Source: Streptomyces ferrugineus (GTDB lineage Bacteria > Actinomycetota > Actinomycetes > Streptomycetales > Streptomycetaceae). Taken from it: DNA of 64,000 nt. The position numbers and the translations under genes were made by a program. Shown one piece after another: positions 31,744 to 47,109 of this stretch. Each line of letters opens with the position of its first letter. Within the stretch, counting starts at the first letter, position 1. The notes below the pieces were generated by a model. The model saw only the letters and a program-made list of their open reading frames with translations, had not been told where the DNA came from and did not search any database. Where the stretch lies: assembly GCF_015160855.1 (NCBI RefSeq), contig NZ_CP063373.1:2294001-2358000 (forward strand). Direction: 5' to 3'.

Positions 31744-31877
31744 TCCACAAGGAGAACCGACGACCACCGACGACATGACAACGGACGCCGACAACTGGGA
31801 ACTGCGGCGCTTCGAGGTGCCCCCAGCCAGCCGGCTCACCGCCGAGCAGCGAGCATCGACCAAAGGACAGACATCTC

Positions 31878-32164
31878 ATGACAGTTGCAGACATGCGGGA
31901 AGCGTTCCCGCTCGCGCCCGAGGGCGGACGCATCCCCTACAGCACGGAGCCTCCGACCGGTGCGGACAGTGGATCCTTCGCTTCGCGCGCGTCCCCGACG
32001 CCACGCAGGCCATCGTGAAGCCGCCGGCGGTCTACGACGAGGCGTTGCAGATGTCAGTCGGCTTGTTCGACGGCCCGTTGCCCTACATGGGCACGCACAA
32101 CCCGACCATCCCCGACGGCGACCCGAACAACCCCCCGCCTCTCGACGAGGGCCCGAAGGACTGA
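31878..32164 (+). pseudogene. ATP-grasp-modified RiPP precursor (TgmA-like) with a one-base frameshift
   Basis: From ATG 31878 the leader MTVADMREAFPLAPEGGRIPY ends in a dead frame (TGADSGSFAS...). The correct continuation, GQWILRFARVPDA ... NPTIPDGDPNNPPPLDEGPKD, lies one frame over and stops at 32164. Adding one G near 31956-31960 rejoins them into a ~95-residue precursor. The C-terminal PTIPDGDPNNPPPLDEGPKD is what I recall as the hallmark tail of GRASP-target peptides, whose acidic and hydroxyl side chains are cross-linked into esters or amides. It sits 4 bp before the maturase fragment. The frameshift may be a mutation or a base-call error. Confidence 0.75.
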
Positions 32165-32168
32165 TGCC

Positions 32169-32588
32169 GTGATGCCGCCCGTTCTCGTGATCGCGGCGCG
32201 TGATGACTGGTCGACCGACCGCGTCGTCAAGGCTCTCACGGACGGTGGAGCGGAGGTGTTCCGCATGGACACCGCCGAGTTCCCTCAGGAACTCACCCTC
32301 GCCGGGCGCGTCGACGCCCGGCGAGGGTGGTCCGGCGGACTCGCCACCCCGCTCCGCACCGTCGACCTCGCCGACGTCTCCGCGGTCTACTACCGCACGC
32401 CGACCCCGTTTGACCTGCCCGCAACCATGTCTGGGCCCGAACGCAGGTTCGCCGCCGCCCAGGCCCGCGCCGGGCTCGGCGGCATCATCTCGGCCCTCGA
32501 CTGCCGCTGGGTCAACCACCCCGCCGCCATGTCCCGCGCCGAGTACAAGCCGTCTGGCATCTCCCCGACGCGACCCGGTGGAACCTGA
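32169..32588 (+). pseudogene. ATP-grasp ribosomal peptide maturase (TgmB-like), N-terminal fragment
   Basis: PPVLVIAARDDWSTDRVVKALTDGGAEVFRMDTAEFP and AVYYRTPTPFDLPATMSGPERRFA are the N-terminal domain of graspetide maturases, which run to roughly 320 residues. Homology stops after RAEYKP (about 32550), followed by eleven unrelated residues and a stop, so the ATP-grasp catalytic domain is gone. Start at GTG 32169 or ATG 32172. The sequence right after the junction belongs to something else, so this is a deletion or rearrangement breakpoint. Confidence 0.8.
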
Positions 32589-33633: not shown

Positions 33634-33730
33634 TCAAGCCCTCCCAGGCGCAAAGTACCGGTGCCCTACCCCTGGCTGGTGATCCATTAACGGTCGGCTC
33701 AGCGGCCAGCCCAAGGGCGCGAGACGCGGA

Positions 33731-33762
33731 GAGGCCGACGGTCCGCGACCGTCGGCCTCTTT
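33731..33762. terminator. Perfect 12-bp hairpin beside the displaced glnA2 tail
   Basis: GAGGCCGACGGT (33731-33742) pairs exactly with ACCGTCGGCCTC (33748-33759) and is followed by TTT on the plus strand. It lies just beyond the tail copy, in the same relative place as the terminator of the intact glnA2 at 37173-37199. Confidence 0.7.
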
Positions 33763-33798
33763 CGTCGAATGAGCGGGAGGTCCGCTCCTGGCTACGCC

Positions 33799-33885
33799 TA
33801 CAGCACCGGCAGATTCTTCCGCAGCTCGAACGCCGTCACCTCGGAGCGGTACTCCTCCCACTCCTGCTTCTTGTTGCGCAGGAAG
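33799..33885 (-). repeat. 87-bp copy of the glnA2 3' end (left repeat, attachment-site-like)
   Basis: Bases 33799-33885 are identical to 37240-37326, the last ~28 codons of glnA2, in the same orientation. The base before it makes the stop TAG instead of TAA. There is no glnA2 sequence beyond 33885, so this is a displaced tail, as left when an element integrates at a gene 3' end. Confidence 0.9.
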
Positions 33886-34092
33886 TGACGTTGGCCCGGC
33901 GCCACCTCACGTGCTCGACGTCGACGCAGCGCTGACCTGCGGTCGGACGGTCGTCATTGGTGGTTGTTGGTCGCTGTGGGCCACTCTTCGACGGCCCACA
34001 GACGGCCCGAATGAACCGATCTTGCAGAATCACTCCCCTGCACGCCTTGACCTCGCTACCTTGAATCAAGGCAGACGCCTCCTGGGGGTGGC

Positions 34093-34794
34093 ATGAACTT
34101 TCTCAGCAAGTTTGCGAAAATCTTACGCAAGGACACAGCAGAACGGGTTGATCACGAGGCCTCAGCGATCGCAGCAATGCTAGAGAAGATGGCCGCACTA
34201 AATGCGTCCGCGGAGGGGCGTCTCGGCTACGGCGCTCTCACATCGACCGAAAGACGGCCGGAAGTCTCGGCAGCTTCGAATCTCGCCGATTACATCTTCA
34301 GTTCCCGTTCAATACCCGACCATCGTGACCTGCTGATCTACCTCATTGATCATGATGTCATCCAGAGATACTTGCCGAATGCATCACTCGTGGATCCTGA
34401 TCCAGCAAAGATCGCGATGACTGTCTTAAACGAAATCGCCGTGATCGTCGCAGACGACCTTCCCTCCTATGAAGCGGTGGACAAAGCCCGCGCAAGGGCG
34501 CGCGCATCCCTCGCGGATTATCCACCCCGTGAGCCGGGAAGTCTCAGCCACGATCCGCTCGTGATTGCTGCACTGAGGGATTCAGTCATTCGAAATCAGC
34601 GCCGGTCGCAGGCGGATCCTGATTTCGATGTGCGACATCTGGACGCCGAAGAGATTCGGACTGCCGCAGCAAAAGCGGAAGAGACCATCGAGCATACTCT
34701 GGCCAGGCTCTTCCTCCGCCTTGGGCCACCACCAGAATCCACGGGACTCAATTTCAGCCCAGTAGAAAGCGGCGGCGGAGGCGCAAGGCAGTGA
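34093..34794 (+). CDS. Unknown protein of the low-GC insert, first of a pair
   Basis: 233 residues. No recognised domain. Mostly helical, with an acidic/alanine-rich middle and a conserved-looking DLLIYLIDHDVIQRYLPNASLVDPDP stretch. The GC content and codon use are clearly lower than in core genes. Its stop overlaps the start of the next gene (GTGA), so the two are coupled. The ATG follows a GGGGGTGGC leader. It may be a soluble partner of the membrane protein that follows. Confidence 0.6.
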   Translation: MNFLSKFAKILRKDTAERVDHEASAIAAMLEKMAALNASAEGRLGYGALTSTERRPEVSAASNLADYIFSSRSIPDHRDLLIYLIDHDVIQRYLPNASLVDPDPAKIAMTVLNEIAVIVADDLPSYEAVDKARARARASLADYPPREPGSLSHDPLVIAALRDSVIRNQRRSQADPDFDVRHLDAEEIRTAAAKAEETIEHTLARLFLRLGPPPESTGLNFSPVESGGGGARQ

Positions 34795-35276
34795 CCATCG
34801 AGAACAGCAGCGCGGTCCCTGCACCGCGCGACAATGACCCCTTAGTCTCGGCTGGCCTTGAGATCGCTATGAAGTGGGGACAGGCTCTAGGGAGCCCGGA
34901 ACAGCTCAAGATTGCCCTAGAGGCGTTGGAGCCCCAGTTGCAGCGTGAGCACCAGATACGCATGAAACAGCTCGATATGCAGGCGGTGAAGGCAGAACAC
35001 GAGGCCCGCGACAAACGCGATAAGCGCCAACATCGGTTCAAAACAGTAAGCCTCATCGTTGGCGCAGTCCTCAGCGTGGCGATGCTCGGCGCAGGCGTCT
35101 ATGTCGCCAAGGATGCCTGGTGGCTGGCCACACTTCTGTGCGGTCCCAGCCTGATCGGCATGGCGCTGGTCATTATTCTTCGTCGCCACGACTCGGCCGC
35201 CATTAAGGCGGTTGCGGACGCAGCACGAAGGTCTACAAGCGCCGCTGGACAGACCCTGACACCACCCCTGTCCTAA
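34791..35276 (+). CDS. Two-helix membrane protein of the low-GC insert, second of a pair
   Basis: 161 residues from GTG 34791, coupled to the upstream gene. A charged, probably coiled N-terminal half (EPQLQREHQIRMKQLDMQAVKAEHEARDKR) leads into two membrane helices (about residues 85-107 and 110-130). This coil-plus-two-helix plan is loosely like DUF2335-type proteins. Function unknown. Confidence 0.6.
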   Translation: MTIENSSAVPAPRDNDPLVSAGLEIAMKWGQALGSPEQLKIALEALEPQLQREHQIRMKQLDMQAVKAEHEARDKRDKRQHRFKTVSLIVGAVLSVAMLGAGVYVAKDAWWLATLLCGPSLIGMALVIILRRHDSAAIKAVADAARRSTSAAGQTLTPPLS

Positions 35277-35403
35277 GTCGCCCTAATTCGCCACAAGACA
35301 GAGAAGAGCAGAAGGTGCCAGAGCTCCAGGATGTCCGAACAAGAGATATCGGCAATCCTGGAGCTACTCTGCTGTTCGCCTTGCGAGTCAAGAGTTTCCA
35401 ACT

Positions 35404-36185
35404 CTAGCTCTCATGGCATCCGAGAGTACCGATGTAGTAAAGACCATCCTCGTGATCACGACCTTCGTCATCAAGGAAATTGACACTGTAGGCGTTATCA
35501 GCGACATAGATGTGGACCTTCTTGTCGTCCGTCACAAACAAGATGTCGCCACAAGAATTCTGGGTGATGGTGTTATAGCCAGCATAGTAGTGGAGGTACT
35601 CCGAGGGTGCTTCACCTATCACCACCAGCCCTGGATCCATAAGTTCCAGCCACGCCCGCGGCACCTTGCCCGACGTGCGACCGTGATGCGGCGCGAACAG
35701 GACATCCACTTTCGGAATGTCCACCTTGTTTTCAATCTTCTCCATGAAGTCCGTTTCGAGATCACCCATCCACAGCACAGCACGCTCAGCCCGGCCGATC
35801 CTCGCTCTTCGCTGCTCTCATTCATCCAGCGGCGCGTGCAGCCTTTGTAAAGATAGAAGGCCTTCTTGGTGTCGTCGCGCAAAGAGCAGTAGTGCTTGAA
35901 GTCCACAGTCGGGGCCGTCTTGGTCGCAGCGTTTTTCACGCAGTAGAAATTATGGATACCGACATGTTCATCCAATTCAACCAGGCCACCGATGTGATCC
36001 TGGTCAGGATGTGTGGAAATAAAGCGTGTAATACCCTTGTCTTGCGATTGCGTGGAGATCTCTGCCAGGATGCTGCCGATCCGGTCCGGCGGGAGCGAGC
36101 AATCAATAATGGTGAAATTGTCGCTGCCGTGGCAGATATAATACATATCGCCGTTGCCGATAGCGAAAGATTTTACGTGGGGCAT
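35404..36185 (-). pseudogene. Metallo-beta-lactamase-fold hydrolase, frameshifted
   Basis: From ATG 36185, MPHVKSFAIGNGDMYYI and ISTHPDQDHIGGLVELDEH (the THxDxDH metal motif) are in one frame. From about 35795 the continuation ARIGRAERAVLWMGDLETDF, VLFAPHHGRTSGK and VIGEAPSEYLHYY lies in another, ending at 35404. One missing G near 35800 explains the break. Rejoined, it would be about 260 residues, like ComEC-type MBL hydrolases. It lies 3 bp downstream of a four-helix membrane gene and was surely co-expressed with it. Confidence 0.75.
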
Positions 36186-36188
36186 CTT

Positions 36189-36944
36189 CTAGGAACCCTC
36201 CTGCGTTGCATCTGTGGCACTTGACGATTCGATCCGACTGACCTGAATGACCGCATGCAACAGCTGGCGGGCATAGCGGAACCCTGCGTCCTTCGCTCGT
36301 TCCTCGGACGGCACGAGGCACCAGCCGATCAAAAATGCGACATTGATCAGGGCGCCGCTAATTGCAGCCCCTGTTGATACAAGAAAAGAGGTGTACCTCG
36401 CCAAGAGACAGGCCAACCCGATGGCTACTAAGCAAGCTAGGGCCACAAAGCGACCGATCCAGCGGAATCCCCACATGTTGCGCTCAAAGCCATATGCCGC
36501 GTTCTCAGCAGCTACCATCGGAAAGCGAGGGTCTTGGCCGAGGTGACGCACCTGATCGGTGGCAGCTTCGATGACTTGATCAGCGGCCACTGGATTTGCC
36601 GCTTCCCGCCGCTTACTCAGCAACTGGACGTCCGTAACCCCTTCGACCGCCTGTCGCCAGATGTCTCGCTGCCCTGGGTTACTACTCTCATCGCGGGTGC
36701 GCAGCAGTTGCGTCGTAGGCCGGCCGCCCCACCGCTCGTACATCCGGTCCTGGGCTCGCCGCCCTGAGTTACCTACCAGGACCGACAGCACATACCCACC
36801 GACCGTAGCCGAGAGCACCCCAAGCGCTACGGGGATAGCTGGGTAAGTCTTCAGTCCCAGCGCGACGACAGTGATGGTAACAGGCGCAATCCCCAACAGG
36901 CCTGGGGTAAGGCGGGCCTTCCGTTCATATGCACTCAAAGCCAC
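36189..36944 (-). CDS. Four-helix membrane protein partnered with the MBL gene
   Basis: 251 residues. Helices at about 12-33 and 36-57, then a ~100-residue cytoplasmic-looking domain, then helices at about 163-184 and 187-208 and a short tail. The 2+2 helix layout recalls the S-4TM/SLATT-type putative pore-forming effectors of bacterial conflict systems, but I see no diagnostic motif. First gene of a tight two-gene unit with the MBL gene, in low-GC DNA. Confidence 0.6.
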   Translation of the reverse strand: MALSAYERKARLTPGLLGIAPVTITVVALGLKTYPAIPVALGVLSATVGGYVLSVLVGNSGRRAQDRMYERWGGRPTTQLLRTRDESSNPGQRDIWRQAVEGVTDVQLLSKRREAANPVAADQVIEAATDQVRHLGQDPRFPMVAAENAAYGFERNMWGFRWIGRFVALACLVAIGLACLLARYTSFLVSTGAAISGALINVAFLIGWCLVPSEERAKDAGFRYARQLLHAVIQVSRIESSSATDATQEGS

Positions 36945-37172
36945 AGTGGACTTGATACCAGTAAAAAGTCATAGCTGTCAGCGAGATTGCAAATCTCGGA
37001 GTACTTCGCAGAATCATCTGCCGCCCTCGATGAGACGTGCCTCCGGTGTCCGCCCAACCGCATGCGCCAGCCAAAGCCACGCCCAAGCCGCTGCCGCTCC
37101 CCACGCGAGGCCAGCGGTCGAGGTTGGCGCTGCGACGGCCCAGAGACGGCCCAGGGTCCATAAAACGAGAAA

Positions 37173-37199
37173 GGGTCGACGGTGCATGACCGTCGACCC
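37173..37199 (-). terminator. Terminator of glnA2
   Basis: GGGTCGACGGT pairs exactly with ACCGTCGACCC around GCATG, and the minus strand then runs into TTTCTCGTTTTAT. A proper intrinsic terminator 40 bp after the glnA2 stop. Confidence 0.8.
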
Positions 37200-37238
37200 C
37201 ATGCGCCGGATCTACGGGAGACCCGCCCTGACCTGCGC

Positions 37239-38600
37239 TTACAGCACCGGCAGATTCTTCCGCAGCTCGAACGCCGTCACCTCGGAGCGGTACTCCTCCC
37301 ACTCCTGCTTCTTGTTGCGCAGGAAGAAGTCGAAGACATGCTCCCCCAGCGTCTCGGCGACGAGGTCGCTGCGCTGCATCAGGGCCAGTCCCTCGCCGAG
37401 GTTCTGCGGGAGGGGCTCGATGCCCATCGCGCGGCGTTCGGCGTCGGAGAGGGCCCAGACGTCGTCCTCGGCGCCGGGGGGCAGTTCGTAGCCCTCCTCG
37501 ATGCCCTTGAGGCCGGCGGCCAGGAGGACGGCGTAGGCGAGGTACGGGTTCGCGCCCGAGTCCAGTGACCGGACCTCCACCCGTGCCGAGCCCGTCTTGC
37601 CGGGCTTGTACATCGGCACCCGGACCAGGGCCGAGCGGTTGTTGTGGCCCCAGCAGATGTACGACGGGGCCTCGCCGCCGGCGCCGGCGGTGCGCTCGGC
37701 GCCGCCCCAGATGCGCTTGTAGGAGTTCACCCACTGGTTGGTGACCGCGGAGATCTCCGCCGCGTGCCGCAGCAGGCCGGCGATGAAGGAGCGGCCGACC
37801 TTGGAGAGCTGGTACTCGGAGCCGGACTCGTAGAACGCGTTGCGGTCGCCCTCGAAGAGGGACAGGTGGGTGTGCATGCCGGAACCCGGGTGCTCGGAGA
37901 ACGGCTTCGGCATGAACGTCGCGTGGACGCCCTGCTCCAGCGCCACCTGCTTCATGACCAGGCGGAACGTCATGATGTTGTCCGCCGTGGACAGCGCGTC
38001 GGCGTAGCGGAGGTCGATCTCCTGCTGGCCGGGCGCGCCCTCGTGGTGGGAGAACTCCACCGAGATGCCCATCGACTCCAGCATGGTGATCGCCTGGCGG
38101 CGGAAGTCCATGCCGACGTTGGTCGGGGTGTGGTCGAAGTAGCCCGAGTTGTCCGCGGGCATCGGCCGTGAGCCGTCCAGCGGCCGGTCCTTCAGCAGGA
38201 AGAACTCGATCTCGGGGTGGGTGTAGAAGGTGAAGCCGAGGTCGGAGGCGCGGGCCAGGGCGCGCTTGAGGACGTAGCGCGGGTCGGCGAAGGACGGGGA
38301 GCCGTCCGGCATGAGGATGTCGCAGAACATCCGGGCCGTGCCGGGCGCCTCGGCGCGCCAGGGCAGGATCTGGAAGGTCGACGGGTCCGGCTTGGCGATC
38401 ATGTCGGACTCGTAGACCCGGGCGAAGCCCTCGATGGCCGAGCCGTCGAAGCCGATGCCCTCGTCGAAGGCCTGCTCCAGCTCGGCGGGGGCCACGGCCA
38501 CGGACTTGAGGAAGCCCAGCACGTCCGTGAACCACAGGCGTACGAACCGGATGTCGCGCTCCTCCAACGTCCGGAGCACGAACTCCTGCTGCTTGTCCAT
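37239..38600 (-). CDS. glnA2: Glutamine synthetase-like enzyme, GlnA2 type (gamma-glutamylpolyamine synthetase)
   Basis: 453 residues from ATG 38600 (MDKQQEF), the length I recall for Streptomyces GlnA2; the ATG five codons upstream is less likely. GFDGSAIEGFARVYESD, EIEFFLLKD, HHEGAPGQQEID, GSGMHTHLSL and NRSALVRVP are glutamine-synthetase-fold motifs. A clear adenylylation tyrosine loop is not obvious. In S. coelicolor the GlnA2 enzyme glutamylates polyamines rather than ammonia. Its 3' end appears to have served as an integration site. Confidence 0.9.
   Translation of the reverse strand: MDKQQEFVLRTLEERDIRFVRLWFTDVLGFLKSVAVAPAELEQAFDEGIGFDGSAIEGFARVYESDMIAKPDPSTFQILPWRAEAPGTARMFCDILMPDGSPSFADPRYVLKRALARASDLGFTFYTHPEIEFFLLKDRPLDGSRPMPADNSGYFDHTPTNVGMDFRRQAITMLESMGISVEFSHHEGAPGQQEIDLRYADALSTADNIMTFRLVMKQVALEQGVHATFMPKPFSEHPGSGMHTHLSLFEGDRNAFYESGSEYQLSKVGRSFIAGLLRHAAEISAVTNQWVNSYKRIWGGAERTAGAGGEAPSYICWGHNNRSALVRVPMYKPGKTGSARVEVRSLDSGANPYLAYAVLLAAGLKGIEEGYELPPGAEDDVWALSDAERRAMGIEPLPQNLGEGLALMQRSDLVAETLGEHVFDFFLRNKKQEWEEYRSEVTAFELRKNLPVL
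37240..37326 (-). repeat. 87-bp glnA2 3' end (right repeat, inside the intact gene)
   Basis: Identical to 33799-33885. It includes two bases of the TAA stop and the codons for the C-terminal VTAFELRKNLPVL. Together the two copies bound a 3.35-kb low-GC segment. Confidence 0.9.
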
Positions 38601-38910
38601 CTTGCGCTTCCCCATCCTTGCTGGTCAGGCCGCCTGTCTCCGGTACCGCGGAAGGCGGTCGGGCACACCTGAGCATCACACAGCCGCGTTTCGCGCGCGT
38701 TGCCGACCTTGATCGCCCGGGCGACCCGGCCCTGAACGCCGCACCCGCGGCGAGCATGCTGCTCCTGAGCCCATCTTGCCTGCTCGGATCGACATCCGTA
38801 ATGCCCGGCCCCTCGGGACCCACCCCGCATTAATTGGAATCTCAGATGCAAGTTTTAATGGGGTGGCAGGCGGCCGCTGACACGCCGCCGATCGAGCCTG
38901 AGGAGACCCG
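38601..38910. other. Divergent promoter region glnA2 / flavohemoglobin
   Basis: 310 bp without a gene. It contains an AT-rich island (CATTAATTGGAATCTCAG ... GTTTTAATGG) with the candidate NsrR dyad, and a CGCGTTTCGCGCGCG stretch near 38690. No ORF was seen. Confidence 0.6.
38836..38850. promoter_or_regulatory. Candidate NsrR operator in front of the flavohemoglobin gene
   Basis: GGAATCTCAGATGCA contains ATCT-C-AGAT inside an AT-rich island, the kind of short dyad bound by nitric-oxide sensor NsrR upstream of hmp genes. The nsrR gene lies just beyond hmp. Assignment is by position and general form, not an exact consensus match. Confidence 0.5.
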
Positions 38911-40110
38911 ATGCTGTCCGAGCAGTCCGCCGCCACCGTGCGCGCCACCCTCCCCGTCGTCGGCGGGGCCATCGGCGAGATCACCGAGCGCTTCTACGCC
39001 GGGATGTTCGCCGCCCGCCCCGAGCTGCTGCGCGACCTGTTCAACCGCGGCAACCAGGCGGCCGGCACCCAGCGGCAGGCCCTGGCGGGATCGATCGCGG
39101 CGTTCGCGACGCACCTGGTGGACCACCCCGACGAGCGGCCCGACGCGATGCTCGGCCGCATCGCCCACAAGCACGCCTCCCTGGCCATCGCGCCGGAGCA
39201 GTACGGGATCGTCCACGAGCACCTGTTCGCCGCCATCGTCGAGGTGCTCGGCGAGGCCGTCACCCCCGAGGTCGCGGCCGCCTGGGACGAGGTCTACTGG
39301 CTGATGGCGAACGCCCTGATCGCCATCGAGAAGCGGCTGTACGAGGAGCGCGGCGGGGGCGGATGGCGGGAGTGGGAGGTCGTCGGGCGCGTCGAGGAGA
39401 CCGCCGACGTCGCCACGTTCCGGCTGCGCCCGGCCGACGGCCGCCCGGCGCCGGACTTCCGGGCCGGGCAGTACGTCTCGGTGCAGGTCGAGCTGGCGGA
39501 CGGGGCCCGGCAGATACGCCAGTACAGCCTCTCCGCCGCGCCCGGCTCACCCCTGCGCCAGTTCAGCGTGAAGCGGGTGCACGGCGGGGCCACGCCCGAC
39601 GGCGAGGTCTCCCAGCACCTGCACACGCGCGTGCGGGTCGGCGACCGGCTGCGCCTGTCCGCGCCGTACGGCGATCTCGTGCTCGGCGACACGGACGCCG
39701 CCGCACCGCTGCTCCTCGCCTCCGCCGGCATCGGCGTGACCCCGATGATCGCCATGCTGGGTCAGCTCGCGGACCTCGGACACGAGGGCCCGGTGCGCGT
39801 CGTGCACGGCGACCGCTCGCCCGCCGGGCACGCCCTGCGCGCCGACCACGAGGCGTACGCGGAGAAGCTGGCGGACGCGTCGGTCCACTTCTTCTACGAG
39901 ACGGACGCCGACCCCGCCCAGCGGTCCCACCGCACCGGCCTGGTCGACCTCGCCGACATCGACGTACCGCAGGGCACGCGCGCGTACCTGTGCGGTCCGC
40001 TGCCGTTCATGCGGGCGGTGCGGACCCAGCTGATCGGCAAGGGCGTGGCACCGGCCGACATCCACTACGAGGTGTTCGGGCCGGACCTGTGGCTGGCGCA
40101 GGAGGGCTGA
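38911..40110 (+). CDS. hmp: Flavohemoglobin (nitric oxide dioxygenase)
   Basis: 399 residues. Globin domain 1-140 with the proximal-His helix AHKHASLAIAPEQY. FAD domain ~150-255 with RQYSLSAAP (flavin-binding RxYS). NAD domain with ASAGIGVTPMIAML and YLCGPLPFMRAV. Converts NO to nitrate using NADPH/NADH and protects against nitrosative stress. GAGGAG precedes the ATG. Convergent with nsrR, its probable repressor. Confidence 0.95.
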   Translation: MLSEQSAATVRATLPVVGGAIGEITERFYAGMFAARPELLRDLFNRGNQAAGTQRQALAGSIAAFATHLVDHPDERPDAMLGRIAHKHASLAIAPEQYGIVHEHLFAAIVEVLGEAVTPEVAAAWDEVYWLMANALIAIEKRLYEERGGGGWREWEVVGRVEETADVATFRLRPADGRPAPDFRAGQYVSVQVELADGARQIRQYSLSAAPGSPLRQFSVKRVHGGATPDGEVSQHLHTRVRVGDRLRLSAPYGDLVLGDTDAAAPLLLASAGIGVTPMIAMLGQLADLGHEGPVRVVHGDRSPAGHALRADHEAYAEKLADASVHFFYETDADPAQRSHRTGLVDLADIDVPQGTRAYLCGPLPFMRAVRTQLIGKGVAPADIHYEVFGPDLWLAQEG

Positions 40111-40117
40111 GGCCGGG

Positions 40118-40240
40118 CACAGCACCGGCGTCGGCCCGAGCTGGGCGAGCGCGCCGCCGATCACCTCGGCGAACGCCGGGAAGAGGGGGTTCTGCGGCTC
40201 GGGGAGCACGAGGCCGACGAGCCGGGCGCGTTCGCCGTGC
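40118..40240 (-). pseudogene. Fragment of a LacI-family regulator gene
   Basis: On the minus strand ERARLVGLVLPEPQNPLFPAFAEVIGGALAQLGPTPVLCPA matches the first strand and helix of the sugar-binding domain of LacI regulators (compare GLVGLITPELENPIFPALAQVIGQAL in MalR at 52430-53464). Only about 40 codons remain between hmp and nsrR. Confidence 0.7.
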
Positions 40241-40265
40241 GGGCAACGTCGTACCGGCGCTGGTC

Positions 40266-40700
40266 TCAGGGGGCGCGGCCGATCTCCAGCAGCAGTGGCC
40301 CGGTCGGGTCGGCGGTCACGTCGGCCACCGTCAGGGGGTCCAGCGAGGCGTAGAAGGCCTCCTGGGCCCGCCGCAGGGCGCCGCGCAGCCGGCATGCGGA
40401 GTTGAGCGGGCAGGGGTTGTCGCCCTCGCACTCGACGACGTCGCCGTCCCCCTCGAAGGCCCGCACGATCGCACCGACCGAGGCGGTGCGCCCCTTGCCG
40501 CTGAGCGAGAGCCCGCCGCCGCGGCCCCGGCGGGCGTCGACCAGCCCCATGTGCTGGAGCTCGGCGACCACCTTGGCGGCGTGCGTGTACGGCACCTCCA
40601 TGTCCGCGGCGACCTCGCGGGTCGTCGGTGTGGCGTCCTCCAGGACGGCGAGCCGCATGAGGAGGCGCAGTGCCAGGTCGGTGGAGCGCAACAGCCGCAT
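40266..40700 (-). CDS. nsrR: Rrf2-family nitric-oxide-sensing repressor NsrR
   Basis: 144 residues from ATG 40700. Winged helix in residues ~1-80 (RSTDLALRLLMRLAV, TTREVAADMEVPYTHAAKVVAELQHMGLV). The cluster cysteines CEGDNPCPLNSAC are those of [4Fe-4S] NsrR. NO damages the cluster and lifts repression of hmp. AATGCGCATT (40717-40726) upstream may be its own operator. Confidence 0.9.
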   Translation of the reverse strand: MRLLRSTDLALRLLMRLAVLEDATPTTREVAADMEVPYTHAAKVVAELQHMGLVDARRGRGGGLSLSGKGRTASVGAIVRAFEGDGDVVECEGDNPCPLNSACRLRGALRRAQEAFYASLDPLTVADVTADPTGPLLLEIGRAP

Positions 40701-40822
40701 GCCGGGTAGCGTAGATAATGCGCATTCGCGGTTCAAAATATCGGCCGCCCTACTGAAGGTCACACCTTCCCCATTACGATCAGCGGACCCGACCGTCCCT
40801 TTCCCCAGAAGGACAACGCCTC

Positions 40823-41485
40823 ATGGGCTCCGCCAAGAACAAGAGCAACGCTTCACGCAAAGCGCGAATAGCAGAGATGCGGCGTGCCGAGCAAGCTCGT
40901 GAGCGCCGCAACCGCATCCTCACGATCGTGACCAGCGCGGTGGTCGTCACCGGTCTCGTCGTCGGCGGTGTCGTGCTCATCCGGTCGCAGTCCGACGACA
41001 GCGACCCGGCGGCCGACACGAAGACCAGCGGCAAGCTCGTGGCCGGCAAGGACGGCGTGCGGACCTGGCAGGGGGAGCTCGGGCGCACCCACGTCGCCAA
41101 GAGCGTGAAGTACCCCACGGAGCCCCCGGTCGGCGGCGACCACAACCAGGTGTGGATGAACTGCAACGGCGACGTCTACACCAAGGAGCTCAAGAACGAG
41201 CACGCCGTGCACTCGCTGGAGCACGGTGCGGTCTGGGTGACGTACACCTCCAAGGCGCCCAAGGCCGATGTCGAGGCGCTGGCGGCGAAGGTGAAGCAGA
41301 CGCCGTACACGCTGATGAGCCCGGACGAGAAGCAGAAGGACCCGATCATGCTGACCGCGTGGGGGCACCAGCGCAGTGTGACGAGCGCGGACGACCCGAA
41401 CGTCGCCAAGTTCCTCGAGACGTACGTCCAGGGTGAGCAGACACCCGAGCCGGGCGCGGCGTGCACGGGTGGTCTGTCGGAGTGA
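40823..41485 (+). CDS. DUF3105 membrane protein
   Basis: 220 residues. A charged N-terminus (KNKSNASRKARIAEMRRAEQARERRNR) and one helix (about 33-54) precede an outward domain. PVGGDHNQVWMNCNGDVYTKELKNEHAVHSLEHGAVWVTY is the DUF3105 signature, rich in His and Cys and possibly metal-binding. Its stop overlaps the start of the DUF305 gene (GTGA). Confidence 0.85.
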   Translation: MGSAKNKSNASRKARIAEMRRAEQARERRNRILTIVTSAVVVTGLVVGGVVLIRSQSDDSDPAADTKTSGKLVAGKDGVRTWQGELGRTHVAKSVKYPTEPPVGGDHNQVWMNCNGDVYTKELKNEHAVHSLEHGAVWVTYTSKAPKADVEALAAKVKQTPYTLMSPDEKQKDPIMLTAWGHQRSVTSADDPNVAKFLETYVQGEQTPEPGAACTGGLSE

Positions 41486-42105
41486 AGAAGCACGTCGGCT
41501 GGATAGCGGGGACCGCGGCGGCCGTGCTGGTCGCGGTCGGAGCACTCACCTACGCCGTCGCCGAGGACGGCGGTTCGAGCGATACGCCGAGCGGCGACTC
41601 GGCGGACGCCGGGTTCGCCCGGGACATGGCGGTGCACCATCAGCAGGCCGTGGAGATGTCGTACATCGTGCGCGACCGCACGGACGACAAGGAGGTGCGG
41701 CTGCTGGCGTACGACATCGCGCAGACGCAGGCCAACCAGCGCGGCATGATGCTGGGCTGGCTGGATCTGTGGGGGCTGCCGAAGGTGTCGTCGCAGGCGC
41801 CGATGGCCTGGATGGGCATGGGCGACATGCCCTCCGCCGGGGAGGGTTCGCTGATGCCGGGCATGGCGACCAACGCGGAGATGAAGAAGCTTCAGGGCCT
41901 CAGCGGCAAGCAGGCGGAGGTCCTCTTCCTCCAGTTGATGACGGCCCATCACAAGGGCGGCATCCACATGGCCGAGGGCTGTGTCGACAAGTGCTCGGTC
42001 GATGTGGAGAAGCGGCTCGCCCAGGGCATGGTCGACGCGCAGCAGTCGGAGATCGACCTGATGGCGGACCTGCTGGAGAAGCGGGGCGCGAAGCCGCGGT
42101 CGTAG
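41482..42105 (+). CDS. DUF305 membrane-anchored protein
   Basis: 207 residues from GTG 41482, translationally coupled. One N-terminal helix, then FARDMAVHHQQAVEMSYIV and LMTAHHKGGIHMAEGC, the paired HH motifs of DUF305 (four-helix, ferritin-like) with Met-rich linker MAWMGMGDMPS. The His/Met richness suggests copper or another soft metal. Acts with DUF3105 by context. Confidence 0.85.
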   Translation: MKKHVGWIAGTAAAVLVAVGALTYAVAEDGGSSDTPSGDSADAGFARDMAVHHQQAVEMSYIVRDRTDDKEVRLLAYDIAQTQANQRGMMLGWLDLWGLPKVSSQAPMAWMGMGDMPSAGEGSLMPGMATNAEMKKLQGLSGKQAEVLFLQLMTAHHKGGIHMAEGCVDKCSVDVEKRLAQGMVDAQQSEIDLMADLLEKRGAKPRS

Positions 42106-42246
42106 TGCGTGCGGCCTGCGAAATGGCGTTGTCATTAGGTTAGTTGGGACCTTCTTGGCCCGGGCATTCCCCTGGCGTGAACGGTTCGTCGCTTAAGTGG
42201 CCACCGTCGGGTGATCCACTCGCACACGAATCGCACAGGGGGTTCC

Positions 42247-44190
42247 ATGAGATCTCGACGTGCCGCGCTGCGCACCTCCGTGAGTCTGGCGGCGACGCTG
42301 CCCCTCCTCACCGGCGCGCTGGCGCTCGGCATACCCGCGGCGCACGCCGCGGACAACCCGGGGCGTGACCGGCTCGCCGGGACCAAGCCCGCGTGGGCCA
42401 CGGCCAGGACGGACGAGGGCGCCACCTCCGACGGCGCCCGGGTGTCCGCACGCGTCTACCTCCGGGGCCGGGACCCGGCCGGGCTCGCCGCGTACGCGAA
42501 GGCCGTGTCCGACCCGGCGTCGGCGTCGTACGGCAGGTACCTGAGCGCGAGCCGGGCGCAGGCCCGCTTCGGGGCGACGAAGGACCAAGTCGTCGCGGTC
42601 AAGGGGTGGTTGACCTCCGCCGGTCTGAAGGTCACGGGTGTCACCCAGCACTATGTCGCCGTGACCGGCGATGTGGCCGCCGCGGAGAAGGCGTTCGGCA
42701 CCGAACTGCACAACTACACCAAGGGCGCGAGGACTTACCGCGCGCCCGTGACCACCGCCTCGGTGCCGAAGGCGCTGAAGGACGCCGTCCTGACCGTCAC
42801 CGGCCTCGACAGCGCCCCGCACCTGGCGCGCCACCAGGACCGGCTGCCGCCGCCGGAGACGGTGTTCCGCAACTCGGGGCCCTTCTCGACGTATCACGGC
42901 TCGAACGTGGCGAAGGCGCTGCCGGACGCGTACGGCACGAAGATCCCGTACGCCGTGAAGGGCTACACCGGCAAGCAGCTGCGCGCCGCGTACGGCGCCG
43001 GCAACCGCACCGGCAAGGGGGTGCGCATCGCCATCACCGACGCGTACGCCTCCCCGACCATCGCCTACGACGCGGCGACCTACGCCGGACGCAACGGCGA
43101 CGCGGCCTGGCGCGCGGGTCAGCTGCACCAGGTCCTGCCCGCCGAGTACACGCACACCAAGGAGTGTTCGGCGGCGGGCTGGTACGGCGAGCAGACCCTG
43201 GACGTCGAGGCCGCGCACGCGGTGGCGCCCGGCGCGCAGATCACGTACGTGGGCGCCGCCTCCTGCGCCGACGAGGACCTCCTGGACTCGCTCAGCAAGA
43301 TCGTCGACCGCCATCTGGCCGACATCGTCTCCAACTCCTGGGGCGAGACCGAGGCCGCCCAGACGCCCGACCTCGCGGCCGCCTACGACCAGGTCTTCCA
43401 GTTCGGCGCGGTGGAGGGGATCGGCTTCTACTACTCCTCCGGCGACGACGGGGACGAGGTCGCGAGCTCCGGCACCAAGCAGGTCGACATCCCGGCGAGC
43501 TCGGCGTGGGTGACGGCGGTCGGCGGCACCTCGCTGGCGGTCGGCAAGGGCGACACGTACCTCTGGGAGACCGGCTGGGGCACCGAGAAGGCGGACCTGT
43601 CGGCCGACGGCGGGAGCTGGACCGGCTTCCCCGGCGCGTTCACCTCGGGCGCGGGCGGCGGCACCAGCAGGACCGTCGCCGAGCCGTCCTACCAGCAGGG
43701 CGTGGTCCCGGACGCGCTGGCCAAGGCGTACGACTCCGCCGGCAACCGCGTCGTCCCGGACATCGCGGCCATCGCCGACCCGAACACCGGGTTCCTGGTG
43801 GGCCAGACCCAGACCATGCCGGACGGCAGGACGCGGGCGTACGACGAGTACCGCCTCGGCGGCACCTCGCTGGCGGCGCCGGTCGTCGCAGGTGTCCAGG
43901 CGCTGGCCCAGGAGGCCCACGGCGGCAGGCCGCTCGGCTTCGCCAACCCGGCGATCTACGCCAGGTACGGCTCGACGGCGTACCACGACGTCACGGACGA
44001 CCCGACGGCGTCCGGGCTCGCGGTGGCGCGCGTCGACTTCGTCAACGGGTACGACGCGACGGGCGGCCTGGAGACGTCCGTACGCAGCCTCGGCAGGGAC
44101 AGCTCGCTGAGCGCCGTGCGGGGGTACGACGACGTGACCGGGGTCGGGACGCCCGCGGGCGGTTACGTGGAGTCGTATCGACGCCGCTGA
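42247..44190 (+). CDS. Secreted S53 (sedolisin/kumamolisin-type) peptidase precursor
   Basis: 647 residues from ATG 42247. A Sec signal ends at AHA (about 33). The pro-domain runs to about 200 (YGRYLSASRAQARFG, HYVAVTGDVAAAEKAFG). In the catalytic domain, WYGEQTLDVEAAHAVAPGA carries the Glu and Asp, and GGTSLAAPVVAG the nucleophile Ser. YDDVTGVGTPAGG is close to the usual calcium loop. An acid-active extracellular endopeptidase. Confidence 0.9.
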   Translation: MRSRRAALRTSVSLAATLPLLTGALALGIPAAHAADNPGRDRLAGTKPAWATARTDEGATSDGARVSARVYLRGRDPAGLAAYAKAVSDPASASYGRYLSASRAQARFGATKDQVVAVKGWLTSAGLKVTGVTQHYVAVTGDVAAAEKAFGTELHNYTKGARTYRAPVTTASVPKALKDAVLTVTGLDSAPHLARHQDRLPPPETVFRNSGPFSTYHGSNVAKALPDAYGTKIPYAVKGYTGKQLRAAYGAGNRTGKGVRIAITDAYASPTIAYDAATYAGRNGDAAWRAGQLHQVLPAEYTHTKECSAAGWYGEQTLDVEAAHAVAPGAQITYVGAASCADEDLLDSLSKIVDRHLADIVSNSWGETEAAQTPDLAAAYDQVFQFGAVEGIGFYYSSGDDGDEVASSGTKQVDIPASSAWVTAVGGTSLAVGKGDTYLWETGWGTEKADLSADGGSWTGFPGAFTSGAGGGTSRTVAEPSYQQGVVPDALAKAYDSAGNRVVPDIAAIADPNTGFLVGQTQTMPDGRTRAYDEYRLGGTSLAAPVVAGVQALAQEAHGGRPLGFANPAIYARYGSTAYHDVTDDPTASGLAVARVDFVNGYDATGGLETSVRSLGRDSSLSAVRGYDDVTGVGTPAGGYVESYRRR

Positions 44191-44232
44191 TCGCGCGGGC
44201 TCGTGGCATGCGGCACCGCACCCCGACTTGGT

Positions 44233-44252
44233 AGGCAAGTGGCCACTTGCCT
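44233..44252. promoter_or_regulatory. Perfect 20-bp palindrome, ArsR autoregulatory operator
   Basis: Half-site AGGCAAGTGG followed directly by its complement, with no mismatch and no spacer. It lies 11 bp before the GTG of the ArsR regulator and so covers its promoter. Confidence 0.8.
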
Positions 44253-44263
44253 ATGCTGTCCGT

Positions 44264-44566
44264 GTGGCCGAAGACCTCTTCAAAGCCTTGGCCGACCCCA
44301 CCCGCCGTACGATCCTCGACGAGCTCACCGAGCAGTCCGGACAGACACTGTTCGAGATCTGCTCGCGACTGAGCATGAAACATCAGCTCGCGATCTCCCG
44401 TCAGGGAGTCTCCCAGCACCTCGCCGTGCTGGAGGCCGCCGGGCTCGTCGAGACCAGGCGGGAGGGCCGCTACAAGTTCCACGACCTCAACACGGCCCCG
44501 CTCCGGCAGATCACCGAGCGCTGGCCCCTGCGCGACCTGACCGGGCCGAAGGAGAGCACCCCATGA
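44264..44566 (+). CDS. ArsR-family regulator
   Basis: 100 residues from GTG 44264. DLFKALADPTRRTILDEL and ISRQGVSQHLAVLEAAGLVETRREGRYKFHDLNTAPL are the ArsR winged helix. It lacks the metal-binding cysteine pair of true ArsR, so it belongs to the non-metal group commonly paired with VOC or SRPBCC genes. Its stop overlaps the VOC start (ATGA). Confidence 0.85.
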   Translation: MAEDLFKALADPTRRTILDELTEQSGQTLFEICSRLSMKHQLAISRQGVSQHLAVLEAAGLVETRREGRYKFHDLNTAPLRQITERWPLRDLTGPKESTP

Positions 44567-44955
44567 AAATCCGTCTGACCAGCGTCTTCGTCGACGACCA
44601 GAGCAAGGCCCTGCGCTTCTACACCGAGATCCTCGGCTTCGTGACGAAGCACGACGTCCCGGTGGGGGAGAAGGACCGGTGGCTGACCGTCGTCTCGCCC
44701 GACGAGCCCGAGGGCACCGAGCTGCTGCTGGAGCCCGCGGGCCACCCGGCGGTCAAGACCTACCGCGACGCCCTCGTCATGGACGGCGTCCCACTCGCCC
44801 AGTTCGCCGTCGCCGACGTACGGGCGGAGTACGACCGTCTGCGCGGCCTCGGCGTCCACTTCACCCAGGAGCCCCTGGAGATGGGCCCTGTCACCACCGC
44901 CGTCTTCGACGACACCTGCGGCAATCTGATCCAGATCGCGACACAGCCGGAGTAA
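44563..44955 (+). CDS. VOC-family (glyoxalase/bleomycin-resistance fold) protein
   Basis: 130 residues, coupled to the ArsR gene. MKIRLTSVFVDDQSKALRFYTEILGF and VFDDTCGNLIQIA are the N- and C-terminal beta-alpha-beta modules of the vicinal-oxygen-chelate fold. Substrate unknown. The last codons and downstream spacer are duplicated in inverted orientation at 32940-33075. Confidence 0.85.
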   Translation: MKIRLTSVFVDDQSKALRFYTEILGFVTKHDVPVGEKDRWLTVVSPDEPEGTELLLEPAGHPAVKTYRDALVMDGVPLAQFAVADVRAEYDRLRGLGVHFTQEPLEMGPVTTAVFDDTCGNLIQIATQPE

Positions 44956-45045
44956 CGGGCCGGGGCGGGCCGCGTCGGCTGGCGGCCGATGGCTGATGGC
45001 TGATTGCCGACCGGGCACGGTCGTCGCCGCGTAGGGTGCGGCGCC
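44901..45045. repeat. VOC 3' end plus spacer, partner of the inverted copy at 32940-33075
   Basis: Reverse complement matches 32940-33075 over ~135 bp. It covers the end of the VOC gene and the whole spacer to the MFS start, including a GGCCGATGGCTGATGGCTGATTG short tandem that is contracted in the other copy. Confidence 0.85.
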
Positions 45046-46323
45046 ATGCCTACCTCCCCCGACCGGTCTCTCTGGGCTGACCGGCAGTTCCTTCTTCTCG
45101 CTTCGGCTCGGACCATCTCGGTGCTGGGTAATGGCTTCGCCCGCGTGGCACTGGGGTTCGCCGTCCTCGCCCTGCCCGGGGCGACTCCGGGGCGGCTGTC
45201 GCTGGTCCTGGCCTGCCAGGCCCTGCCCCAGCTGGTGTTCGTGCTGGCCGGCGGGGTGATCGCGGACCGGATGTCGCGCGCACGGCTGATGGTGGCCGCC
45301 GACGTCGTGGGCGCCGCCGCGTACGCGGGTCTGGCGGCCGTCGTGCTCAGCGGTCACGCGCCGTTGCTCCTCATGTGCGTGCTGGCCGTCGTCGCCGGTA
45401 CCGCGACCGCGCTGTTCGCTCCCGCGATGGACGGTCTGGTGCCGCTGATCGTGCCGGCCGGGAGGCTTCAGCAGGCCAACGGCATGCTGCGGGTGGGCAC
45501 GAACAGCAGCCTGCTGCTGGGGCTGGCGCTGTCGGGCGTCGCCGTCGCCTGGATCGGGGCCGGCTGGGCACTGGCCCTCAACGCCGCGTCGTTCGTCGTC
45601 AGCGCGGTCCTCATCGCCCGTCTGCGCGTTCCCGGACGTGCGGCCAAGGCGTCCTCGGGCTGGGACGACCTCAGAGAGGGGTGGCGGGAGTTCAGCTCCC
45701 GGCAGTGGCTGTGGGTGGTCGTCGCCCAGTACGCGATTGTCGTCGCGGCGCTCAACGCCAACGTCGGCGTCCTGGGTCCGCTGGTCGCCGAGGCGGAGCT
45801 GGGCGGCGCCCGGGCGTGGTCGGTCATCGTCGCCGCCCAGGCGCTGGGCACCATCGCCGGCGCGGGCCTGGCGGCTCGTGTGCGGGTGAACAGGCCGATC
45901 CTGGTAGGGGTTCTGGCCACTTTCCCGGCCGCGCTGCCGATCGCGCTGCTCGCCGTCTCCGCCCCGGTCTGGCTGGTCGCGGTGGCCATGTTCTGCTGGG
46001 GCATCGCCGCGGACGTCTTCGCCGTGCTCTGGTCCACGACCATCCAGCGCGAGGTTCCCGAAGCAGCCCTGTCCCGCGTCAGCTCCTACGACCTGTTCGG
46101 CTCCCTGGCCTTCGCCCCGCTCGGGCTGCTGGCGGCGGGCCCCGTCGCCGGCCTCGTCGGCACCCGGCAGGCGCTGGCGGGGTGCGCCGTCATGATCGTC
46201 GTGGCCACCTGTGCGGCGCTGTTGTCGCCGCAGGTCCGCCGACTCGGCCCGGCGGCGCTCGCGTCCCGCTCTGAGCGGCGTGGGGTTGCCGCTTCGGGTA
46301 CGGCCGACGAGGGGCCGGCGTAG
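45046..46323 (+). CDS. MFS transporter (MFS_3-like)
   Basis: 425 residues from ATG 45046. FLLLASARTISVLGNGFARVALGFAVLALPGA, GVIADRMSRARLMVAADVVGAAAYAGLA and NGMLRVGTNSSLLLGLALSG are typical of exporters related to EntS and macrolide pumps. Twelve helices. Its last ~53 codons recur as a diverged tandem copy right after the stop. Confidence 0.85.
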   Translation: MPTSPDRSLWADRQFLLLASARTISVLGNGFARVALGFAVLALPGATPGRLSLVLACQALPQLVFVLAGGVIADRMSRARLMVAADVVGAAAYAGLAAVVLSGHAPLLLMCVLAVVAGTATALFAPAMDGLVPLIVPAGRLQQANGMLRVGTNSSLLLGLALSGVAVAWIGAGWALALNAASFVVSAVLIARLRVPGRAAKASSGWDDLREGWREFSSRQWLWVVVAQYAIVVAALNANVGVLGPLVAEAELGGARAWSVIVAAQALGTIAGAGLAARVRVNRPILVGVLATFPAALPIALLAVSAPVWLVAVAMFCWGIAADVFAVLWSTTIQREVPEAALSRVSSYDLFGSLAFAPLGLLAAGPVAGLVGTRQALAGCAVMIVVATCAALLSPQVRRLGPAALASRSERRGVAASGTADEGPA

Positions 46324-46339
46324 GGTCGGCCTCCTCGGC

Positions 46340-46537
46340 CCGCTCGGGCTGCTGGTGGCGGGCCCTGTCGCCGGCCTTGTCGGTGGTCGGCGGGCGTTGG
46401 CGGGGTGCGTCGTCATGATCGTCGTGGTCATCTGTGCGGCGCTGTTGTCGCCGCAGGTCCGCCGACTCGGCCCGGCGGCGCCCGCGCCCCGCTCTGAGCC
46501 GCGCGCGGCTGCCGCTTCGGCGACGGTCACGCCGTAA
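46340..46537 (+). pseudogene. Tandem copy of an MFS C-terminal end
   Basis: LGLLVAGPVAGLVGGRRALAGCVVMIVVVICAALLSPQVRRLGPAA repeats the end of the preceding MFS gene (46118-46276) at a distance of about 222 bp with scattered differences. It has no start or upstream body, so it is the tail of a lost paralogue or a partial duplication. Confidence 0.75.
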
Positions 46538-46538
46538 C

Positions 46539-46686
46539 CGGTGACCAGGAGACCGACCGCCGGCACGGGCACCCTCAGGCCCTCGGAGATGAGCTCCAGG
46601 AGTCCGATCGGCAGGTTCTCCGCGGTGTTGAAGGTGAAGGCGGCCGGCATCAGGGCGCAGGGCACCGCCGCCCGGCGGGGGCTCAT
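46539..46686 (-). pseudogene. N-terminal fragment of another MFS transporter
   Basis: From ATG 46686 on the minus strand, ALMPAAFTFNTAENLPIGLLELISEGL and VPAVGLLVTGYGVTVAEA match the first two helices of DHA1-type MFS exporters. The homology ends where the opposite-strand MFS tail copy begins. A truncated relic about 50 codons long. Confidence 0.7.
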
Positions 46687-46826
46687 GAGTGCGCCTCGCT
46701 CGTTTTGTTTTCAACTGACCGATTTATATTGACTTGTAGGCATTCTGCGAGAAGCGTGGAGGACAAGACGCGACAGTCCCACCACGCTCTGCCGCATAGT
46801 TGAAGCAGGACCGGAGGCTGAGCGGA

Positions 46827-47054
46827 ATGACAGCCAGGACCACCACGAAGCGGCTGGCAGCGGCCGTCGGAGCCGGTGCGGCCGTGGTCGCGCTGAGCCT
46901 CGGCAGTGCAGGCGTCGCCGATGCCAAGATCACCCCGCAGTGTTCCAACAGCGGTGGGCAGCAGCCCGCCGGTCAGCAGGACAAGTGCAACGGCAACGGG
47001 CTGCAGACCGAGAACGTGAACCCGCAGGGCAAGCTCCCGCCGGGACACAACTGA
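46827..47054 (+). CDS. Small secreted protein
   Basis: 75 residues from ATG 46827, with GGAGG 9 bp upstream. Signal peptide to about residue 35 (GVADA), then a short mature part with two cysteines (QCSNSGGQQPAGQQDKCNGNG), Gln/Asn/Gly-rich. Function unknown. Followed by a clear terminator. Confidence 0.7.
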   Translation: MTARTTTKRLAAAVGAGAAVVALSLGSAGVADAKITPQCSNSGGQQPAGQQDKCNGNGLQTENVNPQGKLPPGHN

Positions 47055-47082
47055 CCAGCCAAGGAAGACGGAGCCACCAGCA

Positions 47083-47109
47083 GGGGCGGCCGGCACAGCC
47101 GCCCCTTTT
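47083..47109 (+). terminator. Intrinsic terminator with T-run
   Basis: GGGGCGGC (47083-47090) pairs with GCCGCCCC (47098-47105), then TTTT. Ends the small secreted-protein transcript; the convergent VOC gene stops 7 bp away. Confidence 0.8.

Follow-up and report, generated by a model that had tools for sequence, protein, structure and literature searches.

A probable decayed, cis-mobilizable derivative of an actinomycete integrative and conjugative element at the glnA2 3' end in Streptomyces ferrugineus

Introduction

How does the 3' end of a conserved protein-coding gene come to lie twice, in direct orientation, on either side of a few kilobases of foreign-looking DNA? This question is raised by a 64,000-nucleotide stretch of the Streptomyces ferrugineus genome (contig NZ_CP063373.1, positions 2,294,001 to 2,358,000; here called the window, in which all positions are given unless stated otherwise), where a short insert is bounded by two copies of the end of glnA2. 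A preliminary description of the window, made from its letters alone, attributed the insert to site-specific integration at the gene end. The analysis reported here indicates that the insert is very probably a decayed, cis-mobilizable derivative of an actinomycete integrative and conjugative element (AICE) that occupies a recurrent attachment site.

Results

Comparison of the window with itself yielded two exact repeats of at least 30 bp. The longer is an 87-bp direct repeat, identical at 87 of 87 positions, with copies on the minus strand at 33799-33885 and 37240-37326; the other is a 50-bp direct repeat (46209-46481) with copies at 46209 and 46432, 223 bp apart. The right copy of the 87-bp block is the 3' end of a minus-strand gene at 37239-38615, which we take to be glnA2, a name supported as far as glutamine synthetase-like by the Gln-synt_N and Gln-synt_C domains of its product (the latter with an E value of 3.6e-123). 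The left copy is a distal, detached glnA2 tail. Starting at the second base of the stop codon in the right copy, the repeated block extends into glnA2, and the base that adjoins it alters the stop codon alone (TAA at the right copy, TAG at the left). The 3,354 bp between the copies have a GC content of 58.1%, compared with 69.2% and 71.0% in the 10-kb flanks. Both the perfect copies, of which just the right one is attached to the gene, and the lower GC content had been given in the preliminary description and were confirmed.

Similarity between the two tails extends beyond the 87 bp, reaching 84% over 162 bp in all, because a hairpin lies past the stop codon at both copies. The hairpin past the left tail (33730-33760), in the chromosomal flank of the putative attL, is a possible glnA2 terminator (RNA fold of 33718-33765, minus strand, -31.8 kcal/mol, z -4.98). 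The second (37172-37200) is carried by the insert just below glnA2 (37160-37205, minus strand, -22.8 kcal/mol, z -5.38). As both hairpins are strong and unlike in sequence, the element seems to return a terminator-like structure along with the gene end. Outside the repeat, the sequences are unlike on all sides of both copies. The outer flank at 33703-33798 aligns with DNA below glnA2 in relatives, and the left element end (33886-34010, plus strand), a putative integrase arm region, matches similar places in relatives at 77-82% and aligns with the left ends of other inserts. A search of plasmids and phages with the left-end DNA gave zero matches.

To place the locus in the genus, 295 genomes were searched with the tail region (33724-33885), and 291 matched. 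Fifty genomes besides that of the window had two matches and were examined; 31 of these carried a pair on the same contig and strand, and the remaining 19 (split contigs, opposite strands or a weak second match) were left out of the pair count. Tail pairs on one contig and strand are thus present in 32 of the 295 genomes, the window included, with inserts of 697 to 26,090 bp. The inner end of the repeat is at offset 86-88 in 20 of the 32 pairs (at 87 in 16), lies before that offset in 10 and extends further in two, G140 and G050. Five relatives have a single tail, and in these both window flanks (33703-33733 to 33885, and 37134-37174 onward) align at one place, which is what integration predicts. 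Tail identity is 87/87 in the window, G068 and G090, and 68-76 of 87 in G153, G206, G030 and G190. Complete identity would fit a recent event, but it is not a clean clock: in G280, whose insert gives a full-length integrase match, the tails agree at 77 positions.

A tblastn search of the 32 inserts with the integrase protein of G090 found a full-length match in 14, a partial or broken match in eight and none in 10. All 14 full-length matches fall within the 16 inserts of at least 10.6 kb, and no full-length match was detected in any of the 16 inserts of up to 8.2 kb. The window insert had no integrase match in this search. In G213, the integrase family comprises Phage_integrase, Phage_int_M and SAM-like domains, and with the G213 protein as query (E <= 1e-120), matches were obtained in 113 of the 295 genomes. 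All of the 16 closest integrases (72-100% identity to G213) have a glnA2 tail at a distance of 77 bp to 4.6 kb. For the next 25 (65-71%), the listed tail is on the same contig in 12, at a distance of at least 88 kb, and on another contig in six; the remaining seven have no listed tail position. Specificity for glnA2 thus tracks one close group of integrases, with sister integrases elsewhere. The G090 integrase (68%) and a truncated one in G045 (72%) are likewise at glnA2, and in at least three of the 19 genomes left out of the pair count (G187, G201 and G210), an integrase accompanies a tail on a split contig.

A paired end motif, GACGGCCC-N(1-4)-GACGGCC, recurs among the inserts as well. In all but one of the 14 inserts that gave a full-length integrase match, it lies within the insert, with at most one mismatch each, 104-106 nt from the distal tail and 106-107 nt from the gene-side tail; G280 is the exception, with distances of 105 and 94. 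Sixteen of the 32 inserts have a perfect motif at each end. The window insert has exact motifs at 105 and 106 nt and is the sole one of the 10 integrase-free inserts to do so. Its left arm-type motif, GACGGCCCACAGACGGCC, is at 33990-34007 (plus strand), 105 nt inside the left tail. The right one (37134-37151) falls within a stretch that corresponds to the final nine codons, plus stop, of an integrase gene now lost (37134-37163, plus strand). Indeed, the right motif encodes the integrase C terminus in relatives as well (DGPETAQKG in G090; DGPQTAQ in G213, G068, G273 and G250). Because the frame of the window motif gives DGPETAQGP and a stop, its int gene is missing except for the final nine codons, which double as the motif. 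In the form GACGGCCCANAGACGGCC, the motif has two matches in the window, both perfect. When three mismatches were allowed, shuffled sequences averaged 1.0 match and 26 of 100 reached at least two, so the number of matches is unremarkable alone; the weight lies in the zero mismatches and in the positions. We infer that the motif is an integrase arm site.

Across the whole 9.96-Mb, single-contig genome, the motif occurs at four places with at most one mismatch, and a control pattern at none. Two of the four are the ends of the window insert, and the others, at genome positions 7882838 and 7887052, bracket a second element (L150: 3221-7687). This element lies between 44-bp direct repeats that are 98% alike and has a broken integrase, pieces of which are 56-57% identical to the glnA2 type. 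As the same motif accompanies other repeats there, the motif sites seem to be common to integrases with differing core sites.

End motifs were also found where only one tail remains. Of 19 single-tail loci that were read, four (L013, L014, L022 and L026) have the exact motif 106-107 nt below glnA2, and two more have it with one mismatch. Some apparently empty sites, these four included, are probably scars of lost elements, judging from the motif that they retain. G192, one of the five single-tail relatives that align with both window flanks, has an end motif too, and its site may likewise be such a scar. An initial view of the single-tail genomes as untouched sites was dropped, since the motif persists at some of them.

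The larger inserts point to the class of element from which the window insert may derive. The open reading frames (ORFs) of four large inserts, read by eye, include GntR-like, Nudix-like, large translocase and replication genes, a small helix-turn-helix (HTH) gene and int. Family searches found Prim-Pol, HTH_17 and Phage_integrase in G213, FtsK_SpoIIIE in G273 and G250, and DnaB N-terminal and DUF3987 domains in G273. The layout of these large inserts is AICE-like, as set out in PMC3218068. With Int, Tra and Rep absent, the window insert is not an autonomous AICE, and none of its five ORF pieces searched gave a Tra or Rep match. It retains both putative attachment sites (the 87-bp copies and the motif pair at 105 and 106 nt), lacks recombination and conjugation genes, and shows descent from an integrating conjugative element in its int remnant and in the AICE-type relatives at the same site; these are the features of a cis-mobilizable element (CIME) or decayed AICE (DAICE).

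Four genes are present inside the window insert, as previously described, and the third of them is split over two frames. The first (34093-34794, plus strand) encodes a 233-amino-acid (aa) protein with a variable front and a conserved C-terminal tail of about 45 residues, LARLFLRLGPPPE...GGGGA-Q. Most homologues share these last residues alone and have differing fronts; a few share more. A structure model of this protein (predicted local distance difference test [pLDDT] score of 58.5) was not used. The second gene (34791-35276, plus strand) encodes a 161-aa membrane protein with 139 other homologues at an E value of <= 0.001. At 16 loci with such a homologue, the window included, the C-terminal tail is encoded nearby at an E value of <= 1e-5 in 11, weakly in two and not at all in three, and the two genes form a pair.

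The split third gene (35404-36185, minus strand; pieces at 35619-36185 and 35404-35778) encodes a predicted metallo-beta-lactamase-fold hydrolase (Lactamase_B, E value of 6.1e-8). Its two pieces match PDC-M48B, a candidate model in PADLOC, with E values of 3.7e-63 and 4.8e-49, and this is the sole strong PADLOC match of the window cargo; the other three genes had none. The fourth gene (36189-36944, minus strand) encodes a 251-aa helical, probably membrane protein with 75 homologues besides itself and a structure model with a pLDDT score of 90.8. Seven matches to it, the window included, were found in 392 genomes, and a profile scan of genome contigs with its alignment found three loci. A fold search with the model gave a best E value of 0.28 and was not used. 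Overall, the window cargo looks defense-like.

Recognized defense families are carried by other inserts at glnA2, including RT_UG22 with RTasHEPN (G273), a type II methyl-directed enzyme (G041) and SduA (G025). G230 has an integrase-free 2.6-kb insert (L055: 1053-3162) with RT_UG23 and RTasSLATT (E values of 2.5e-187 and 5.8e-56). In a PADLOC scan of ORFs picked by eye from 18 of the 32 inserts, nine (G000, G014, G025, G041, G179, G213, G230, G249 and G273) had a hit at an E value of <= 1e-20, a count that cannot stand as enrichment because no control gene set was scanned. Of the other nine, seven had no PADLOC hit at 1e-5 and two had weaker hits only; several of the weaker hits may reflect shared domains.

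The surroundings of the insert are rearranged as well. Relative to the gene at 48254-51253, presumably glnE, the orientation of glnA2 was determined in 76 of 80 genomes; in the other four (G281, G236, G013 and G110), glnE lies on a different contig from the tail. Downstream of glnA2, glnE is found in the same direction in 68 of the 76 and reversed in three; in five, including the window, it is the glnA2 block that is turned round with respect to glnE. Compared with most relatives, the window has the segment between glnA2 and about 44.2 kb, within 33703-47100, in inverted orientation to glnE and its surroundings. A tail pair is present in four of the five inverted genomes and in 14 of the 68 (Fisher p 0.012), in a sample enriched for tail pairs and with kinship uncontrolled. 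At the far side of the block, G206 carries an attachment end in inverted orientation, and no such end was found there in the window. That the elements had a part in the inversion is no more than a lead. Immediately to the left of the insert, at 31775-32588, a short ORF encodes an MvdD pre-ATP-grasp domain (E value of 1.4e-14) and looks truncated relative to full ATP-grasp maturases.

Discussion

The origin that we favor for the window insert would begin with an AICE whose integrase recombined its attP, comprising the last 87 bp of glnA2 and a hairpin, with the chromosomal site, handing glnA2 a complete end again. The backbone (int, xis, rep and tra) would later have been lost or replaced, leaving the cargo between functional-looking attachment sites. 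Such a cassette would then move only upon arrival of an AICE of the same specificity, either in cis by accretion or by Int and Xis supplied in trans. Integration at the gene end with restoration of the gene, as the preliminary description proposed, is supported by the five aligning relatives, the 32 tail pairs, the integrase group and the motif pair at fixed distances. Two checks suggested there, for glnA2 tails beside integrases in other genomes and for relatives with an empty site, gave the expected results in the 16 closest integrases and in the five single-tail genomes, respectively, and the absence of a recombinase inside also held. In one respect that description needs revision: glnA2 was considered an unusual attachment site, and it is used repeatedly in the genus.

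The preliminary description left the choice between a remnant and a satellite moved by a helper. Both fit, and a cis-mobilizable remnant is the better supported of the two. A true satellite would be a cargo cassette integrated here directly by the integrase of a helper AICE acting in trans, with its end sites under selection. The window insert is indeed the only integrase-free insert of 10 with both motifs exact, its 87/87 tails, matched in two of the other 31 inserts, fit a recent event, and its cargo is of foreign composition. However, a recent deletion would give an identical picture, a search of 61 genomes with the insert DNA turned up no second copy of the cassette, and the nine-codon int remnant shows an ancestor that bore int. 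We regard a satellite origin as unlikely. Far less probable still is homologous recombination that took place without a dedicated recombinase, as a duplication of the tail or as a single-crossover insertion of a tail-bearing plasmid. The likeness of the hairpin region beyond the 87 bp and the repeats of G140 and G050, which reach further into the gene, would suit it, but random events are not expected to produce a shared inner end (offset 86-88 in 20 of 32), motifs at fixed distances and association with one integrase group. That the assembly duplicated the tail, a general possibility and nothing specific to this locus, is unlikely to the point of being negligible, because the genome is in one contig, the outer sequences differ, five single-copy relatives align to both flanks and the pattern recurs in 31 other genomes.

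Several observations weigh against descent of the window insert from an AICE as outlined above. The repeats of G140 and G050 run well beyond offset 88 and could be duplications, and the left tails of G233 and G143 are shortened. With the G213 query at an E value of <= 1e-120, no glnA2-type integrase was found in the window genome, where the best match has 47% identity. The integrase reading frames of G090 and G025 each contain one in-frame stop, and a full-length match is therefore no proof of a working gene. Pfam gave no hit for the Tra (translocase) candidates of either G068 or G213, nor did NCBIfam for the one of G213. Finally, an AICE with this cargo was not found at glnA2; the insert DNA gave end matches alone in the 61 genomes searched, so deletion from a full AICE was not seen directly.

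More tentatively, and with considerable doubt, the glnA2 3' end could be a genus-wide docking site for defense genes. One integrase group with fixed end motifs would import AICEs of largely anti-phage cargo, the backbone would be shed, and the next AICE could mobilize, in cis or in trans, stripped cassettes whose ends stayed intact, such as the window insert. The pair of 233-aa and 161-aa proteins would then make up a membrane-tethered conflict module of a new kind, with a two-helix partner that reads the conserved C-terminal tail of a protein with an exchangeable front.

For AICE-type elements, the locus provides a repeatedly used attachment site that lies in a conserved protein gene and not in a tRNA gene. 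Searching for the tail together with the end motif offers an easy way to uncover further elements, what they carry and what is left of them, and the site is a possible attB for vectors. As full, broken and integrase-free inserts occupy one place, decay can be tested directly against mobilization of stripped cassettes.

Parts of this picture are already in print. PMC9513070 describes AICEs located in protein genes as well as decayed AICEs flanked by direct repeats, and PMC7563491 defines the CIME class. Use of glnA2 as an attachment site was not found in the open-licence literature searched, although an earlier description is possible, as the supplementary site table of PMC9513070 was not covered. 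That study reported DAICEs, cargo flanked by direct repeats after integrase loss, in a Streptomyces population, and 14 of its 51 insertion sites are protein-coding genes. The window insert resembles these DAICEs as repeat-flanked cargo left at an AICE site after loss of the integrase; in contrast, the sites named in the main part of that study are tRNA genes, rlmN and a glycosyltransferase gene, and glnA2 is not among them. The AICE pSLS belongs, according to the part of PMC3218068 consulted, to a tyrosine-integrase subfamily that does not use tRNA genes; no pSLS record was present among the matches listed, and the likeness is that of an AICE tyrosine integrase at a non-tRNA site. CIMEs, as characterized in the covered part of PMC7563491, have kept their attachment sites, lost conjugation and recombination genes, and carry 1.2-13 kb of cargo. 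The window insert is alike in its kept sites, lost mobility genes and cargo. However, those CIMEs derive from streptococcal integrative and conjugative elements and integrative and mobilizable elements, whereas the window insert would derive from an AICE-type element and stands alone, outside any tandem array.

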